Source: Euryarchaeota archaeon (lineage in GTDB: Archaea > Thermoplasmatota > SW-10-69-26 > JACQPN01). From it: a stretch of DNA of 64,000 nt. The stretch lies in NCBI GenBank assembly GCA_016207515.1, contig JACQPN010000002.1, forward strand, positions 76,350-140,349. Reading direction: 5' to 3'. The notes below the pieces were generated by a model that saw nothing but the letters and a program-made list of their open reading frames with translations, had not been told where the DNA came from and did not search any database. Below, piece after piece: positions 9,163-17,136 of this stretch (within the stretch, counting starts at the first letter, position 1; the number at the start of each line of letters is the position of its first letter). The position numbers and the translations under genes are program-made.

Positions 9163-9185
9163 CCCACGTGAGGGAATCTGAGCCG

Positions 9186-10925
9186 ATGAGGCAGGTCTCT
9201 AAGGCCGTCCTGGTCGGGGTCACGGTAATCTTGCTTTTTTTCCCGCTGGCCGCCGCCGAGACGACCGAATTGTCCGTCGAGGCGCCTTTCAAAGTGCTCG
9301 GCGACACCAAGGCCGAATTCGAGTCCGGGTGGCTTGTCGCATGGGCACCCGAGGGCCGAGACGTGGCGGGCGACGAGTTCAGCCTCTCGGCCAGCAGCAT
9401 CCCCTTTGCCGAGATCAAGGTCTACAACTACACGACGGAGTGCACCGTCGTCGACTTCAGCAACCCCCCGACTTTCTCGTGCCAGTTCGACCCCGAAGCA
9501 AGTCCGGTGGAAGTGGACTACGCGGACGAGGGGCCGCTCTCAGACGTCCGGGTCGAACCGCTTGACGACTTCGTCTTCGTGGCACGCCTCGGCCAGGGGA
9601 TAGCGGAGGAGGCTCCGGTGACCCGCGGGACCCTCGAGGTCTCCACCATCGAAGAGGGCGACTCTTCGACTTTGAGCGCGCTTGAGTCCAGGCGCTACAT
9701 CTACGCGACGGCCCAATCCGAAATCTGGTCGGAGACCGAGTGCGGGAGCAGGGTATGCCAACCGTATGGCGTGCGGTTCGAAAAGGATCGGCCGTACCTC
9801 GAGTTGGAGAACGGGTTGGCCACCGTCTCGGGTGGATCGCACATCTACATCTTCAACGGCAAGTTGCAGTTCCACGACCTGTCGAAGCCGGATGGCCGAA
9901 CGACGGAACTCATGGCCGGCAGGACCGCCTACACGGACATGCAAAACGGCATCCCCACCCGGCAAGTGGTCACGGTCACGTGGATAGTGTTGACCGATTG
10001 GACCGGCGGCTACGATATCCAAAGCTCATTGCCCATGCGCGCCTTCTCGCAAGGAAGCGAGGTCGTCCAATACAAGGGGCTAATGGACTTCAAAGACCCC
10101 ACCGGTTCCGCCGCGATCAACGGGAACCTCACGGAATTCGTGGGCGAGGACACGGAGATCGCCGGCGAGATGACCGTGATGGGGATCGACGCCGGCTCCC
10201 ACCGCTCGGGCGGGACCACGCTGACTTTCCAGGTACTCAACGATGCCGCGCCGCCGATACCCCCGACGCCGCCCCCGATCGTCGAGGACGAAGGCTTCGC
10301 GCGTGGCGTCGTCGCCGCGACCGCCGCGACCTCAAGCCTTGGCCTTGCCGCTTACTTCTGGCCTCGCCTCAAATGGCTCGCGACCGTGCCTCTCATACCG
10401 CTCTACACGCGAATCGCGAAGGACGAGGTGCTGGAGCACGGCAAACGGGAGGAGATCTACAATCTCATCCGCGAAGAGCCGGGAATCCACGCTCACGAGA
10501 TCAGTTCCAGGGCGCAGATAGGGTGGGGCACGACCGTGTACCATCTTCGGATGCTGGAGACGAACAAACTCGTTACCGCGCAGTATTCCGGCCGCTACAA
10601 GCGGTTCTTCGCGAACACCGGTGGGTTCTCCCAGAACAAGGACATGTACGCGGCGTTGAAGAACCCGACCACCGCGAAGATTGCCCAAGAGATACTCAGG
10701 AACCCCGGCATCACGCAGAAGGACATCAGCAAGGCCATCGGCATCACGCCGAGCCTCGTTTCCTGGCACATCGGCAAGTTGGAAGAGGCGAACCTTGTCC
10801 GCAGGGTGAAGGAAGGAAGGCTCGCACGGCATTACGCGGGCGACGGGTGGAAGACCTTGAACCTCCAGTTGCCGGGCACGCCCATAGGCGGCGAGGCTCC
10901 GCCCGGCGAGCGCGGTGCGGCATAA
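9186..10925 (+). CDS. Membrane-bound regulator: outside sensor domain plus two cytoplasmic winged helices
   Basis: A 579-residue product. A signal or anchor segment (KAVLVGVTVILLFFPLAAA) is followed by about 340 residues of beta-rich outside domain with four cysteines (TTECTV, FSCQF, TECGSRVCQPYG). A Pro-rich stalk leads to a membrane segment near residue 370 (GVVAATAATSSLGLAAYFW). The cytoplasmic part carries two winged helix-turn-helix units: EEIYNLIREEPGIHAHEISS...TTVYHLRMLE, then KIAQEILRNPGITQKDISK...SLVSWHIGKLE. It is thus a one-component sensor expected to bind DNA from the membrane. The ATG at 9186 fits a leaderless transcript. Ligand and targets are unknown. Confidence 0.75.
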   Translation: MRQVSKAVLVGVTVILLFFPLAAAETTELSVEAPFKVLGDTKAEFESGWLVAWAPEGRDVAGDEFSLSASSIPFAEIKVYNYTTECTVVDFSNPPTFSCQFDPEASPVEVDYADEGPLSDVRVEPLDDFVFVARLGQGIAEEAPVTRGTLEVSTIEEGDSSTLSALESRRYIYATAQSEIWSETECGSRVCQPYGVRFEKDRPYLELENGLATVSGGSHIYIFNGKLQFHDLSKPDGRTTELMAGRTAYTDMQNGIPTRQVVTVTWIVLTDWTGGYDIQSSLPMRAFSQGSEVVQYKGLMDFKDPTGSAAINGNLTEFVGEDTEIAGEMTVMGIDAGSHRSGGTTLTFQVLNDAAPPIPPTPPPIVEDEGFARGVVAATAATSSLGLAAYFWPRLKWLATVPLIPLYTRIAKDEVLEHGKREEIYNLIREEPGIHAHEISSRAQIGWGTTVYHLRMLETNKLVTAQYSGRYKRFFANTGGFSQNKDMYAALKNPTTAKIAQEILRNPGITQKDISKAIGITPSLVSWHIGKLEEANLVRRVKEGRLARHYAGDGWKTLNLQLPGTPIGGEAPPGERGAA

Positions 10926-11458: not shown

Positions 11459-11495
11459 GGGGAGATATTAAGAGTGACAATCCGATGGCGCGCTC

Positions 11496-12437
11496 GTGCG
11501 CGCCACGGTCTTGATCCTTTCCGGTCTTGCCCTCACGACGATCTTCTTCACGCCGGTCCTCGCGCAGAAAAATGGCGAGCCAGTGGACGTGGGCGTCGGT
11601 CTTTACGTCATCTCCTTCGGGAACTACGACGTGAACAAGGGCACGTACACGATCGACTCGTACATCTGGTTCCGCTGGGACCCCGCGAAGGCCCCGTCGA
11701 ACTTCACGCCGCTCGCGTTCGAGTTCATGAATGGGAGGGCCTCCTCGAAAGAGAAGATATCCGACGACATCCTGGAAAGCGGGCAGCGCGAGGTCTGGTA
11801 TCGCGTGCAGGCGAACCTGTACAACGAACCGGTGTTCCGCGATTACCCGTTCGACCGCCAGGACGTCGCCCTATTGATCGAGGACACCGTCCACTCGACG
11901 GATGAGCTCGTCTACCATCCGCTCACGGGTCCCGAGAGCGTTGACAAGGATTTCAGGATATCCGGCTGGAAGATCGAGAACGTGGCGACGTCGAACGGCA
12001 CGAAGGCGTACCCGTTCGGGGAGGACTACTCGCGCTACTCTTTCGACGTCACGATCGTCCGCGAGCCCACATCGACCGCGATCAAGACGGTACTTCCCCC
12101 GCTCGTCTTCATGGCCGTGTCGGGGCTCTCGTTCTTCTTCGGCGCCGACAAGATCGCGAACCGCGTCGGGCTCTCGACCGCGATGCTCATCTCGGCAGTC
12201 ATGTTCCACATCAGCCAGACCTCGTCCCTTCCGCCGCTCGGGAGCCTCATCCTGATGGACAAGATCATGATCGCGACCTACACGTTCCTTGCAGGTAGTC
12301 TCGTCGTCACGACCGTGTTGCAGATCAACCAGGACGTCTGGAAGAGGCCGGACATGAATTCGAAGATAAACCGGTTGGGAGGGGCCGCCACCATCGTGGC
12401 GCCTATCGTGACGGCTGCGTTGCTCCTTGGGCTATGA
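11496..12437 (+). CDS. Pentameric ligand-gated ion channel homologue (Cys-loop superfamily type)
   Basis: A 313-residue protein with the full plan of prokaryotic pentameric channels. It has a signal peptide (VLILSGLALTTIFFTPVLAQ) and an extracellular beta domain with GLYVISFGNYDVNKGTYTID, YIWFRWDP and the hallmark YPFDRQ in place of a disulphide loop. Four membrane helices follow: M1 with LPPLVFMAVSG, M2 with NRVGLSTAMLISAVMFHISQ, M3 after LILMDKIMIATYTF, and M4 at the end. The RVGLSTAML...LPPLG...MDK order matches the ELIC/GLIC pattern. Such channels pass ions on binding a small ligand or protons. A TATA-like ATATTAAG near 11465-11472 makes the GTG at 11496 a leaderless start. Ligand unknown. 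Confidence 0.85.
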   Translation: MRATVLILSGLALTTIFFTPVLAQKNGEPVDVGVGLYVISFGNYDVNKGTYTIDSYIWFRWDPAKAPSNFTPLAFEFMNGRASSKEKISDDILESGQREVWYRVQANLYNEPVFRDYPFDRQDVALLIEDTVHSTDELVYHPLTGPESVDKDFRISGWKIENVATSNGTKAYPFGEDYSRYSFDVTIVREPTSTAIKTVLPPLVFMAVSGLSFFFGADKIANRVGLSTAMLISAVMFHISQTSSLPPLGSLILMDKIMIATYTFLAGSLVVTTVLQINQDVWKRPDMNSKINRLGGAATIVAPIVTAALLLGL

Positions 12438-13374: not shown

Positions 13375-14754
13375 TCACCCCACCGTCTTCTCCCATTTCT
13401 TCAACTTGAGGACCTTAGACAAAGTGGAGCCCCGCGCGATCTCCTCTCTCAAGCGGTCCTCCTGCTCCTTCACGTCGACGGCGCGGTTCGCGATCTCCTG
13501 CGCCCGCTCGCGCGGCAACACGACGACGCCGTTCTCGTCGGCGACGATCCAGTCATCGGTGCGAACGCGTTGCCCGCCGGCTTCTATCTCGACGCCGATC
13601 TCGCCAAAGCCCTTCGGGTCGCCCGCGTTCGGTCGGATGAGGCGGGCCCACGCTGGGAACGCTATCCGCCGGATCTCGTCCACGTCGCGTATCGAACCGT
13701 CGATGACGACGCCAGCGAGTCCTTTCGCTTTCGACGTGTGGCTCGCCAATTCCCCCCACACGGCCCTCTTGTCCCCATGCACTTTTACAACGATGATGGT
13801 CCCGGGTTCAGCCTGGTCTATCGCCTCCACGGGTTTCGCCCAATCGCCGTCCATCGTGCTCACCGTCAGGGCAGGTCCCACCGCTTTGGCTCCGATGAGA
13901 ACCGCGTTGATCCCGTCCATGGCGCCCTCCCGGTGCATCGCGTCGCTCACGTTCGGGGAACTGGCGATCATGAGCGCCTCGCGGATCTCCGCTGACGAGA
14001 ACTTCTTCATGCCGGCGCTCGGCACCGATTTGACCTCGTCGATGGCCTTGCGGATCGCGCGCGTTGCCGCAGTCGCGTCCTTCGCCTTGGTTATCGCTCC
14101 GCCCACGATGATTACCGAGGCGCCAGCCTCGACAAGAGGCGCCACCGTCTCGGACGTGAGGCCGCCCGCGACCGCGACGGGTAGCGACGTCGCTTTGACG
14201 ACGTCCCGTACCATCTCGATGGGCGAGCCGCCCTTCATCTGTTCGTCGACGCCGATGTGGAGAGCGACCAGGTGCGCACCGAGTCTTTCTGCCTCGGCCG
14301 CACGTTTCGGTGTGTCTTTGACTCCGATGAGGTCCACGATCACTTTGCCCCCGTATTTTCGCGCCGCTTCCACGGCCTCCATGATGGTGCCGTCATCAGA
14401 GACGCCGAGCACGCCAACGACCGACGCGCCGGCCTTGATGGCCATCTCCGTTTCGAGTCCACCCGTGTCCATGATCTTCATGTCGGCGACGATGTCGTTA
14501 CTTGGGAATTCCTTCCGGAGCGAGCGCACCGCGTCGAGTCCCTCGGACTTGATGAGGGGTGTACCGGCCTCGACCCAATCGGCCCCACCCGCGACAGCCT
14601 CGCGCCCGATTTCGAGCGCGCGATGGAGGTTCACGAGGTCGAGGGCGACTTGGAGTTTCACGCGCTGGCCCTTTGATGCTTTCGCGGACGCCGGGGACGA
14701 AGCGGTCGCTTTGCGCGTGCCTATCGTGGACGCGCGCGCGGACTTTCGCGCCAT
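13375..14754 (-). CDS. Bifunctional 3-hexulose-6-phosphate synthase / RraA-like protein
   Basis: A 459-residue fusion. Residues about 33-240 form the OMPDC-superfamily barrel of hexulose-phosphate synthase (VALDLVNLHRALEIGREAVA, ADMKIMDTGGLE, VDLIGVKDTPKRAAE, PVAVAGGLTSET). It interconverts ribulose 5-phosphate plus formaldehyde with hexulose 6-phosphate, the usual archaeal route to pentoses where the oxidative pathway is missing. Residues about 255-440 are an RraA/demethylmenaquinone-methyltransferase-like domain (GPALTVSTM, GVVIDGSIRDVDEI, WIVADENGVVVLP). The fusion is known in archaea; the role of the RraA part is not settled. The ATG comes 2 bases after the tpiA stop. The basic N-terminal 32 residues are unusual; a GTG at 14661 would remove most of them. 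Confidence 0.9.
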   Translation of the reverse strand: MARKSARASTIGTRKATASSPASAKASKGQRVKLQVALDLVNLHRALEIGREAVAGGADWVEAGTPLIKSEGLDAVRSLRKEFPSNDIVADMKIMDTGGLETEMAIKAGASVVGVLGVSDDGTIMEAVEAARKYGGKVIVDLIGVKDTPKRAAEAERLGAHLVALHIGVDEQMKGGSPIEMVRDVVKATSLPVAVAGGLTSETVAPLVEAGASVIIVGGAITKAKDATAATRAIRKAIDEVKSVPSAGMKKFSSAEIREALMIASSPNVSDAMHREGAMDGINAVLIGAKAVGPALTVSTMDGDWAKPVEAIDQAEPGTIIVVKVHGDKRAVWGELASHTSKAKGLAGVVIDGSIRDVDEIRRIAFPAWARLIRPNAGDPKGFGEIGVEIEAGGQRVRTDDWIVADENGVVVLPRERAQEIANRAVDVKEQEDRLREEIARGSTLSKVLKLKKWEKTVG

Positions 14755-15510: not shown

Positions 15511-17136
15511 TCATACTTCTACGAGCCCGTACGCCCCGTTCACGCCCAGCATGTAAACGACGCGCACGAGCGTCGTCCCCGTCGGGATGCTTCCAGTCTG
15601 GTTCACCGAAAGTCCGGTGTCGCAGCGGATCAGCGTCGCGCCGGTGTACCAGCACTGGTCGAAATCATTTCCAATGGTCGTCGTGATCCGGTAGGTCTTT
15701 CCGCCGCACGAGGACGCGACTGAGTGGTCGCGGGAACTCACGCCGTCGACGGCCACGCCATTGAGACCGATAAGCAGCGTACCGCCCACCGAGATGCACG
15801 GCGGATTCACGACCTCCGTCATACTCAGCGCGCTGCCGGTCAAGGCCGGATTGCCCGTGTCTGTTGGGGTTGCAGATACCGTCTTCGATCCCGTCGTGCT
15901 CCACGTATGAGTTTTTACCGCCGGATCGCCAGATTCCTTGCTCCCTGATGCCGGAACGCGCTCGACAGGGGAGCCGTCGCCCCAGTTTACCATGAGGTAC
16001 ACGCCCGGCATAGTAGTCGTGGCGGTGAAGGAACACGAGGTGATTTTGAAAGTGATCGTCGGATTCGGGTTGCACGTGACGTTCGTCATCACTGGAGGCG
16101 TCGACGCCGCGTACTGGATGTAACGCGCCGTCGTCACGTTCCCGATGTTCCAATGTGTCGCGATGTAATTGTTGCCCGACGCGCCCGGCCTGAAATAACT
16201 GTCGTGGCTGCAATCGAAGTGCTTGCGGTCCGTGCAAGTGGAGGTCGTGTATGTCGAATTCGAGCCTCCGTCCGAGTAGCACATGATGTCGAGGCCGTCG
16301 TTGCAGTGCCAACCGCCCGACGAATCCGGTGCCGTGAGCTGGACGGCGCCGAGATTATGGCCGTTCTCGTGCATCATTATCGTGTAGTCGCTGAACCCGT
16401 AGGTTATCCCGTACATGGCGCCCGCGCCGGAGTAACCGTTGTTGTAGTTGTCAATGATGGACCGGTCGTCGCCCCAGATGTTCCCTTGTCCCCCGTAGCC
16501 GCCGACGCCGTCGTCGTGTCAGACCCAGTACTTCGTCCTGTAGTCTGTGTAGCCACGGGAGGCAAGTTCGGATGTGATCGACGAGAACGTGTCGCTTCCA
16601 GAGACGGTGTCGAGCATCACGCTGTCCACGCGAAGCGTCGTCCCGTCGGAGAGGCATCGCATCTCGTAGTTCGCCACATAGCCGAACTCGGCGGCCTCTT
16701 CCCGGAGAACTCCGTTCACCTGGTTCATCATCGACCTAATGCTCGGAACCATCGTCGAAGAGCGGTTCGTCTTGTTAGGTGGATAGGTGTAGATGAGAAG
16801 ACCCGCATAAAGATCAGACGAGGGGGCGCAGGCGGGTGCCGCGGGTGGCGCAGCTGGTACGTCGGGTCCGCCGGAACCGGGCGCGGGCGGAGCAGGGTCG
16901 GGCCCATGCGAGTACATGATCGCCCCGTCCTGCCGTTTTATCGCCCACAGGCCGTTGTCGAGCCGACACGACTGGCCTTGCCCCGCGACATAAGTGAAGT
17001 CGTCGCACGGGAGTTGCGGCAAATCGTCGGGGGCCGCGGCGGCCGGGGTGACGGGCAGCGCGCCCGACAGCATCAGGAGGACTGTGAGAACGGCAGTGAT
17101 TGTGGCGGCGCGCGGTCTAAGTTCGTCGATTGGCAT
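15511..17136 (-). pseudogene. Secreted zinc metalloprotease with PKD-like domain, interrupted by one in-frame UGA
   Basis: One continuous frame from the ATG at 17136 to a stop at 15511 is broken only by TGA at 16519-16521. The first part (205 residues) has a signal peptide and a Pro/Ala-rich linker, ending in YRTKYWV. After the stop it continues with HDDGVGGYGGQGNIWGDD and the protease core IMMHENGHNLGAVQ (HEXXH), a WHCNDGLD cysteine site and the DIMCY Met-turn-like block. A PKD-like domain (VNWGDGSP) and a Cys-rich tail follow. Related secreted proteases often have Trp where the stop lies (YLVW-like), so TGG to TGA is the simplest account. Alternatives are a sequencing error or UGA readthrough. 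Other genes here use TGA as a normal stop. Confidence 0.7.

Follow-up and report, generated by a model that had tools for sequence, protein, structure and literature searches.

The pentameric ligand-gated ion channels (pLGICs, or Pro-loop receptors) are a known family, and archaeal members have already been published. To our knowledge, a preference for cations marks the prokaryotic pLGICs from which recordings exist. ELIC is described in the accessible part of PMC3119659 as amine-gated and cation-selective. There the bound amine lies close to E77 and E131, with F19, Y38, Y174, and F187 also around it, and no response was obtained when E77, E131, F187, F133, Y174, I79, or N103 was replaced by alanine (PMC3119659, same part). 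In known pLGICs, the pre-M1 Arg is the partner of the Pro-loop Asp (PMC4795631, Table 1). The same paper, in the portion available, lists ten Thaumarchaeota sequences within 16 archaeal pLGICs. Both selectivities were expected among prokaryotes in the accessible text of PMC549065.

The window analysed here is the whole 64,000-nucleotide stretch of archaeal DNA. At 11496..12437 (+) it carries an open reading frame with a GTG start, encoding a 313 aa protein without cysteine; all gene features given below lie on the same + strand. Judged by homology searches and the AlphaFold2 fold, the product is a full-length pLGIC subunit. A TATA-like stretch recognised by eye at 11463..11472, about 25-30 bp ahead of the start codon, may be its own (leaderless) promoter; archaeal promoters lie outside the reach of a sigma-70 scan. 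The signal peptide covers aa 1-24 (11496..11567) and ends in PVLAQ; in the model it showed a helix at 2-18 and a low-confidence break at 19-26. The extracellular β-sandwich domain, aa 25-189 (11568..12062), was assigned from the modelled strands and a sub-threshold Pfam ligand-binding domain (LBD) match. It follows directly after the signal peptide, and an extra N-terminal domain of the DeCLIC type is absent from the 313 aa chain. The Pro-loop YPFD occupies aa 117-120 (11844..11855) in the alignment and has no flanking cysteines. The pre-M1 arginine is R189 (12060..12062), and Arg stands there in 60 of the 63 short archaeal rows aligned below. AlphaFold2 placed the helices M1, M2, M3, and M4 at aa 191-214 (12066..12137), 219-242 (12150..12221), 253-282 (12252..12341), and 285-312 (12348..12431), respectively; the alignment also gave M2, which would line the pore.

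All seven of the most conserved superfamily positions in Table 1 of PMC4795631 were found, namely Y117, P118, D120, W158, R189, P201, and P246. The protein showed the [F/Y]PxD pattern in the β6-β7 loop (YPFD), the β9 aromatic residue (W158), and the basic residue at M2 0′ (R223). The disulphide-forming cysteines that define a strict Cys-loop receptor are missing. The initial annotation had read a pLGIC homologue in an archaeon from these letters, and the open reading frame, motifs, homology, and fold agree with it. Each of the elements it listed is present, i.e., signal peptide, β domain with YPFDRQ (aa 117-122), four helices, the M2 pattern RVGLSTAML...LPPLG, and MDK.

A single-sequence phmmer search against PDB chains matched 275 distinct sequences up to E 1, and the best E value (6.1e-13) was obtained for ELIC/GLIC-GABA-A chimeras. 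With a profile built from 19 homologues, the E value improved to 4e-29. TIGR00860 matched with E 3.3e-21 and 75.6 bits, against its own cut-off of 280.2. Both Pfam domains stayed below their gathering cut-offs, which are annotation thresholds and not biological features (transmembrane domain, 26 against 28.1 bits; LBD, 22.5 against 26). The close relative L022 passed the LBD cut-off with 31.1 bits. As the window protein misses the gathering scores, threshold-based annotation would overlook the gene. Several short-ectodomain members also fall under the Pfam thresholds, and archaeal annotation therefore probably misses a share of these channels.

The AlphaFold2 model, made with an alignment of 17 sequences, showed the signal helix, eight listed β strands, and then four helices (pLDDT 74.6, pTM 0.55). 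Foldseek and VIA-align gave GLIC as the top fold match over residues 25-313 (TM ~0.73, Z 22.1, rmsd 3.4, 282 residues), and GABA-A receptors followed closely (Z ~21). For the Methanoperedens relative, modelling from one sequence gave a pLDDT of 40.8 and no usable fold. All models are single chains, the confidence of the window-protein model is moderate, and the pocket discussed below was placed from the alignment. The initial annotation had made its reading depend on a predicted β-sandwich plus four-helix fold; for the monomer, AlphaFold2 returned this fold in GLIC-like form. The protein almost certainly adopts the pLGIC fold, as judged from sequence and model, and very probably works as a homopentameric ion channel.

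For the comparison with relatives, 78 domain sequences were kept. Thirteen are DeCLIC-type or otherwise long, and 63 short rows were analysed, omitting two truncated short rows (L089, L095). Four fragments had been dropped earlier (L052, L066, L067, and part of L095). Identical sequences were entered once, and the L094 tandem pair is represented by its weaker copy only. Row KR11 (L035), one of the 63, is cut at its start, and an insertion of one residue displaces the position numbering in rows L094 and L096.

The short rows have a shortened stretch from strand 2 to the loop-A Asn, which in the window protein covers aa 62-79 (11679..11732) by alignment. In the window protein, 17 residues separate W61, the aromatic residue of strand 2, from N79 of loop A. 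The same stretch has 11-19 residues in the 63 archaeal short rows, except for the one row cut at its start, and 14 residues in three bacterial plasmid rows. In GLIC, ELIC, and DeCLIC it has 32, 36, and 41 residues, respectively, and 39-41 in 12 of the 13 archaeal long rows. The loop-A W-x-P of GLIC and ELIC is missing in the short members; residues at this place were proposed to lie within the path from the pocket to the inner sheet, according to the available part of PMC549065. When the shortened columns were removed before tree building, 38 short rows formed one side of a branch with support 100/99. This tree holds 45 of 84 rows, and its only seven outsiders are GLIC, ELIC, DeCLIC, and four archaeal DeCLIC-type proteins. 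The window protein hence belongs with high probability to a monophyletic group, for which we coin the name short-ectodomain clade. Members of the clade were found in archaea of three phyla and also on plasmids of bacteria. Our literature search, whose coverage mostly leaves out subscription papers, found no paper on it. Within the reach of that search, a compact clade in which an amine-pocket pattern recurs and the pore is free of acids would be new.

The ten ELIC agonist-site columns were mapped onto the window protein by profile alignment and MAFFT, which agreed; ELIC Arg91 lies outside this mapping. Two loop-C residues are numbered one lower in the ELIC paper, so Y174 and F187 correspond to 175 and 188. 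Both amine-binding glutamates have a counterpart. E76 (11721..11723) in loop A corresponds to ELIC E77 and to GLIC Arg77, with Glu in 52/63 rows. E129 (11880..11882) in loop B corresponds to ELIC E131, and Glu is found there in all 63 archaeal and all three bacterial short rows. In the alignment of a bacterial short member with GABA-A β3, this Glu falls on the Glu of ‘LEIES’. In loop C, Y172 (12009..12011) stands for Tyr174 and Y178 (12027..12029) for Phe187, with Tyr in 63/63 and Tyr/Phe in 57/63 rows, respectively. Y37 (11604..11606) is the counterpart of F19 (aromatic in 56/63 rows) and Y56 (11661..11663) that of Y38 in loop D (aromatic in 61/63). The remaining counterparts are W58 for V40, M78 for I79, W101 for N103, and T131 for F133. 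A like residue occurred at M78 in 58/63 rows and at the V40 place in only 8/63. F133 and N103 are not kept, and a like residue was observed in only two and one of the 63 rows, respectively.

The six residues corresponding to F19, Y38, E77, E131, Y174, and F187 occurred together in 47 of the 62 ungapped archaeal rows; 16/63 rows lacked at least one of them or had a gap. The full pattern was found in none of the 13 DeCLIC-type or otherwise long archaeal rows and is absent in GLIC and DeCLIC. The ten mapped columns were more conserved than random columns of the extracellular domain (ECD), with 684 of 100,000 random sets as low. This is the fair test, in which related sequences are treated as one alignment. 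For the six residues the count was 22 of 100,000, in a set picked after seeing the data.

GLIC has Arg and Ile at the places of the two pocket glutamates. Among its carboxylate-site residues (PMC7336382), E181 fell in an insertion by profile alignment and opposite Y178 by MAFFT. With Glu in place of Arg77 and no counterpart of E181 retained, a carboxylate site of the GLIC type was rejected. The initial annotation had suggested a chemical or pH sensor; the pocket pattern would narrow this, pointing to amines and away from GLIC-like proton gating. An amine-type agonist, as suggested by the alignment, comes close to an even prospect. Gating by protons or pH, as in GLIC or sTeLIC, in which the titratable M2 His15′ would act and no organic agonist would be needed, is quite improbable. 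His is found at 15′ in 54/63 rows, GLIC is the top fold match, and pH had been named from the outset. However, the M2 His of GLIC is at 11′ and not at 15′, and the ELIC-type residues are kept instead of the carboxylate site.

In M2, R223 is at 0′, G225 at 2′, I232 at 9′, and H238 at 15′. ANR fills -2′ to 0′, where the anion-selective type would show Pro-Ala-Arg or A-[R/K] together with the lack of an acid ring. The window protein has no acid from -3′ to 20′, and the same was observed in 51/63 archaeal short rows. The other 12 rows have at least one M2 acid, mostly D20′, or E at -1′/-2′ in three. R0′ is invariant by alignment column (63/63), a 9′ hydrophobe (I/L/M/V/F) and the M2-M3 Pro are each present in 63/63 rows. 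Acids were found in the M2 of GLIC (E-2′ and E19′), ELIC (E-1′), and DeCLIC (E2′); among the archaeal long rows, 12/13 have at least one, and 11/13 have Asp/Glu at 2′. The pores of GlyR α1 and GABA-A α1 show no acid in M2 from -3′ to 20′. The Pro at -2′ of animal anion channels is absent from the window protein. Overall closeness to the animal anion receptors was rejected, as the transmembrane domain is no nearer to GlyR or GABA-A than to GLIC. Identities to GlyR, GABA-A, and GLIC were 0.21, 0.21, and 0.22 over M1-M3, and 0.27, 0.20, and 0.27 over M2, respectively.

These M2 residues suggest a pore that prefers anions or is non-selective, at slightly under an even chance. The ectodomain has a net charge of -9 (median -10 in the 63 rows; GLIC -5), and such an acidic ectodomain fits poorly with anion attraction. 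An amine-gated cation channel like ELIC, in which the acidic vestibule of the ectodomain rather than M2 would set the selectivity, is unlikely but a reasonable competitor. The net charge speaks for it, as does ELIC itself, which combines amine gating with cation selectivity (PMC3119659, accessible part) and is the closest ECD reference (identity 0.24). Pre-M2 residues are also generally insufficient to predict selectivity in prokaryotes, according to the available portion of PMC4795631. The absence of the -1′ acid of ELIC and the -2′ acid of GLIC, together with the acid-free M2 in most rows, weighs against such a cation channel.

M2 was the most conserved part of the protein, with a mean identity over 14 rows of 0.82 against 0.47 for the ECD. 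Such a difference would be expected if the sensor varies and the pore is conserved. A ligand-binding sensor without ion conduction, whose four helices merely transmit a conformational change, is extremely improbable. The family group at hand has no characterised member, which leaves room for such a sensor, but the conservation of M2, with R0′, the 9′ hydrophobe, and the M2-M3 Pro kept in every row, argues for a conducting pore.

We prefer to read the protein as a channel gated by a small amine or an amino acid, whose pore has no preference for cations and may conduct anions. It is tentative as a whole, somewhat further below an even chance than its agonist or its pore alone, and ligand, selectivity, and pentamer are drawn from sequence and model. 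Five copies of the protein would make up a Cys-less pLGIC at the cell surface. From outside the cell, a small amine or amino acid would bind between subunits, in a pocket like that of ELIC and GABA receptors, with E76, E129, Y172, and Y178 on one side and Y37 and Y56 on the other. Coupling between the Pro-loop and the pre-M1 Arg would then open the pore at the 9′ hydrophobic gate. As the open pore lacks an acidic ring, cations would not be favoured and anions would probably pass; the current would probably be carried by chloride or other small anions, or be non-selective. The flow would change the membrane potential or solute balance in answer to the signal.

A wider proposal is that archaea of several phyla have amine- or amino-acid-gated anion channels, in which a pocket of the GABA/ELIC type is joined to an acid-free pore of the glycine-receptor type. 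We consider this clearly unlikely. If true, cells that have no nervous system would possess the working logic of inhibitory receptors, whether inherited or convergent, in a subunit whose loop-A region is drastically shortened. No biological role was known for any unicellular pLGIC in 2016, according to the available portion of PMC4795631. With a compact archaeal clade that is widespread and for which a ligand class and a selectivity are concretely predicted, the role question becomes testable, and the shortened loop-A region is a test of which ectodomain parts gating needs.

Matches were found in 3/5 genomes of the window's order and 3/7 of its class (own genome included in both), and in 19/389 genomes of the Thermoplasmatota, one of them DeCLIC-type. 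The phylum of the Ca. Methanoperedens genome showed 22/344 (11 DeCLIC-type, one unclear) and that of the MCG-6 genome 36/398, where several matched places were left unread and without a locus. With these counts in three phyla, such channels can be called uncommon in archaea only with a qualification. All named records that the genome scan yielded were archaeal (16 loci). Viral or phage carriage was rejected, as no channel was found among the viral contigs and phages searched. Plasmid matches came from nine records (eight Azospirillum and one Streptomyces), three of which were read.

The three copies of the window's order grouped together in two trees (SH-aLRT 91; 82/91) and not in a third, which makes it likely, but does not prove, that the gene descended vertically within the order. 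Orthologues in other families of the order are open frames of >300 aa with ~52% identity. In relatives, dN/dS was ~0.07-0.15 for the four unsaturated pairs of five computed. The GC3 of the channel gene was 0.875, and that of sixteen compared genes 0.63-0.84. The initial annotation had assumed acquisition by transfer; as a recent event this found no support, given the 3/5 genomes of the order, a GC3 like or slightly above that of the neighbours, and the two trees. A gene recently acquired by lateral transfer and without a settled role is very improbable. The patchy 19/389 distribution in the phylum, the Methanoperedens copy nested among Thermoplasmatota copies, and the lack of a conserved neighbourhood would suit it; copies from three families at ~52% identity, their grouping in two of three trees, host-like GC3, and purifying selection in relatives speak against it. 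The Ca. Methanoperedens channel lay inside the Thermoplasmatota copies, and its EF-2 grouped with two other members of its own phylum, so an old transfer may stand behind this copy, or a binning error. Between archaeal groups, old transfers probably took place.

Several other channel copies were recorded on the way. L053-L063 and L019 are archaeal DeCLIC-type channels in frames of 620-690 aa, with Asp/Glu at M2 2′ in 11/12. L056, the sole member scanned against Pfam, matched DeCLIC with E ~1e-135 and showed no Pfam transmembrane match at E 0.01. In the MCG-6 phylum, two short-type genes lie side by side in genome G873 (L094, C14:214775-216700) and several occur in G738, so heteromers are possible. 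Several short-type copies of this phylum are split or stop-interrupted (G1125, G1119, G942, G879, L089), and L052, from the phylum of the Methanoperedens genome, is also stop-broken. L097, on an Azospirillum brasilense plasmid, is a short-ectodomain pLGIC from a bacterium; its pocket residues are the same, and the record's table has no gene there.

Upstream of the channel gene, a Nudix gene ends 37 bp ahead of it, and an Mrr-type endonuclease gene lies downstream on the opposite strand. An all-against-all comparison of open reading frames over 22 stretches showed no conserved partner gene. UvrB, UvrC, and a ZIP-like transporter (named by eye) were rejected as operon partners, being common to only 3-4 closely related loci. 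The earlier remark that no periplasmic-binding-protein partner is present holds for partner genes of any kind, and the neighbourhood comparison gave no context gene pointing to the ligand. Elsewhere in the window, 15511-17136 (-) encodes a probable secreted metalloprotease with MMHENGHNLG, an HExxHxxG motif, and a weak Reprolysin-like Pfam match; one in-frame TGA occurs at 16519-16521, and the frame is otherwise open across this break. At 13375-14754 (-), a fused OMP-decarboxylase/HUMPS-family and RraA-like protein adjoins triosephosphate isomerase. The product of 9168-10925 (+) shows a long extracellular-type region, a transmembrane-like stretch, and two winged-helix domains, and is possibly a membrane-bound transcription regulator.

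Compared with known channels, the window protein likely falls in the same broad clade as the Cys-less archaeal pLGICs of Jaiteh et al. 2016 (PMC4795631), matched by description and not by alignment. The accessible text of that paper neither names Thermoplasmatota nor describes the shortened ectodomain, the pocket pattern, or the M2 without acids. The window protein shares the Pro-loop, pre-M1 Arg, and four helices with DeCLIC, sTeLIC, and the archaeal proteins of the DeCLIC type (open frames of 620-690 aa); the DeCLIC-type proteins differ in an extra N-terminal region of ~350 aa, a loop-A stretch of 39-41 residues, and mostly Asp/Glu at M2 2′. GLIC (Gloeobacter, PDB 3eam) is the best fold match (Z ~22), and its Arg105 has a kept counterpart in R103; however, Arg77 and Ile131 are replaced by E76 and E129, E181 is not kept, and the acids at -2′ and 19′ are absent. 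ELIC (Dickeya/Erwinia, PDB 2vl0, 5heu) is likewise Cys-less without an extra N-terminal domain, and it has the highest ECD identity among the references (0.24) and the six kept pocket positions, including both amine-binding glutamates. It differs in its loop-A stretch (36 residues against 17), in F133 and N103, and in its -1′ acid. Unlike the animal glycine and GABA-A receptors, to which it is distantly related, the window protein has no Cys loop, no -2′ Pro, and no long M3-M4 loop, and its ECD is shorter. With these receptors it shares R0′ and the acid-free M2, and a GABA-A β3 Glu aligns with the E129 position via the bacterial short member.
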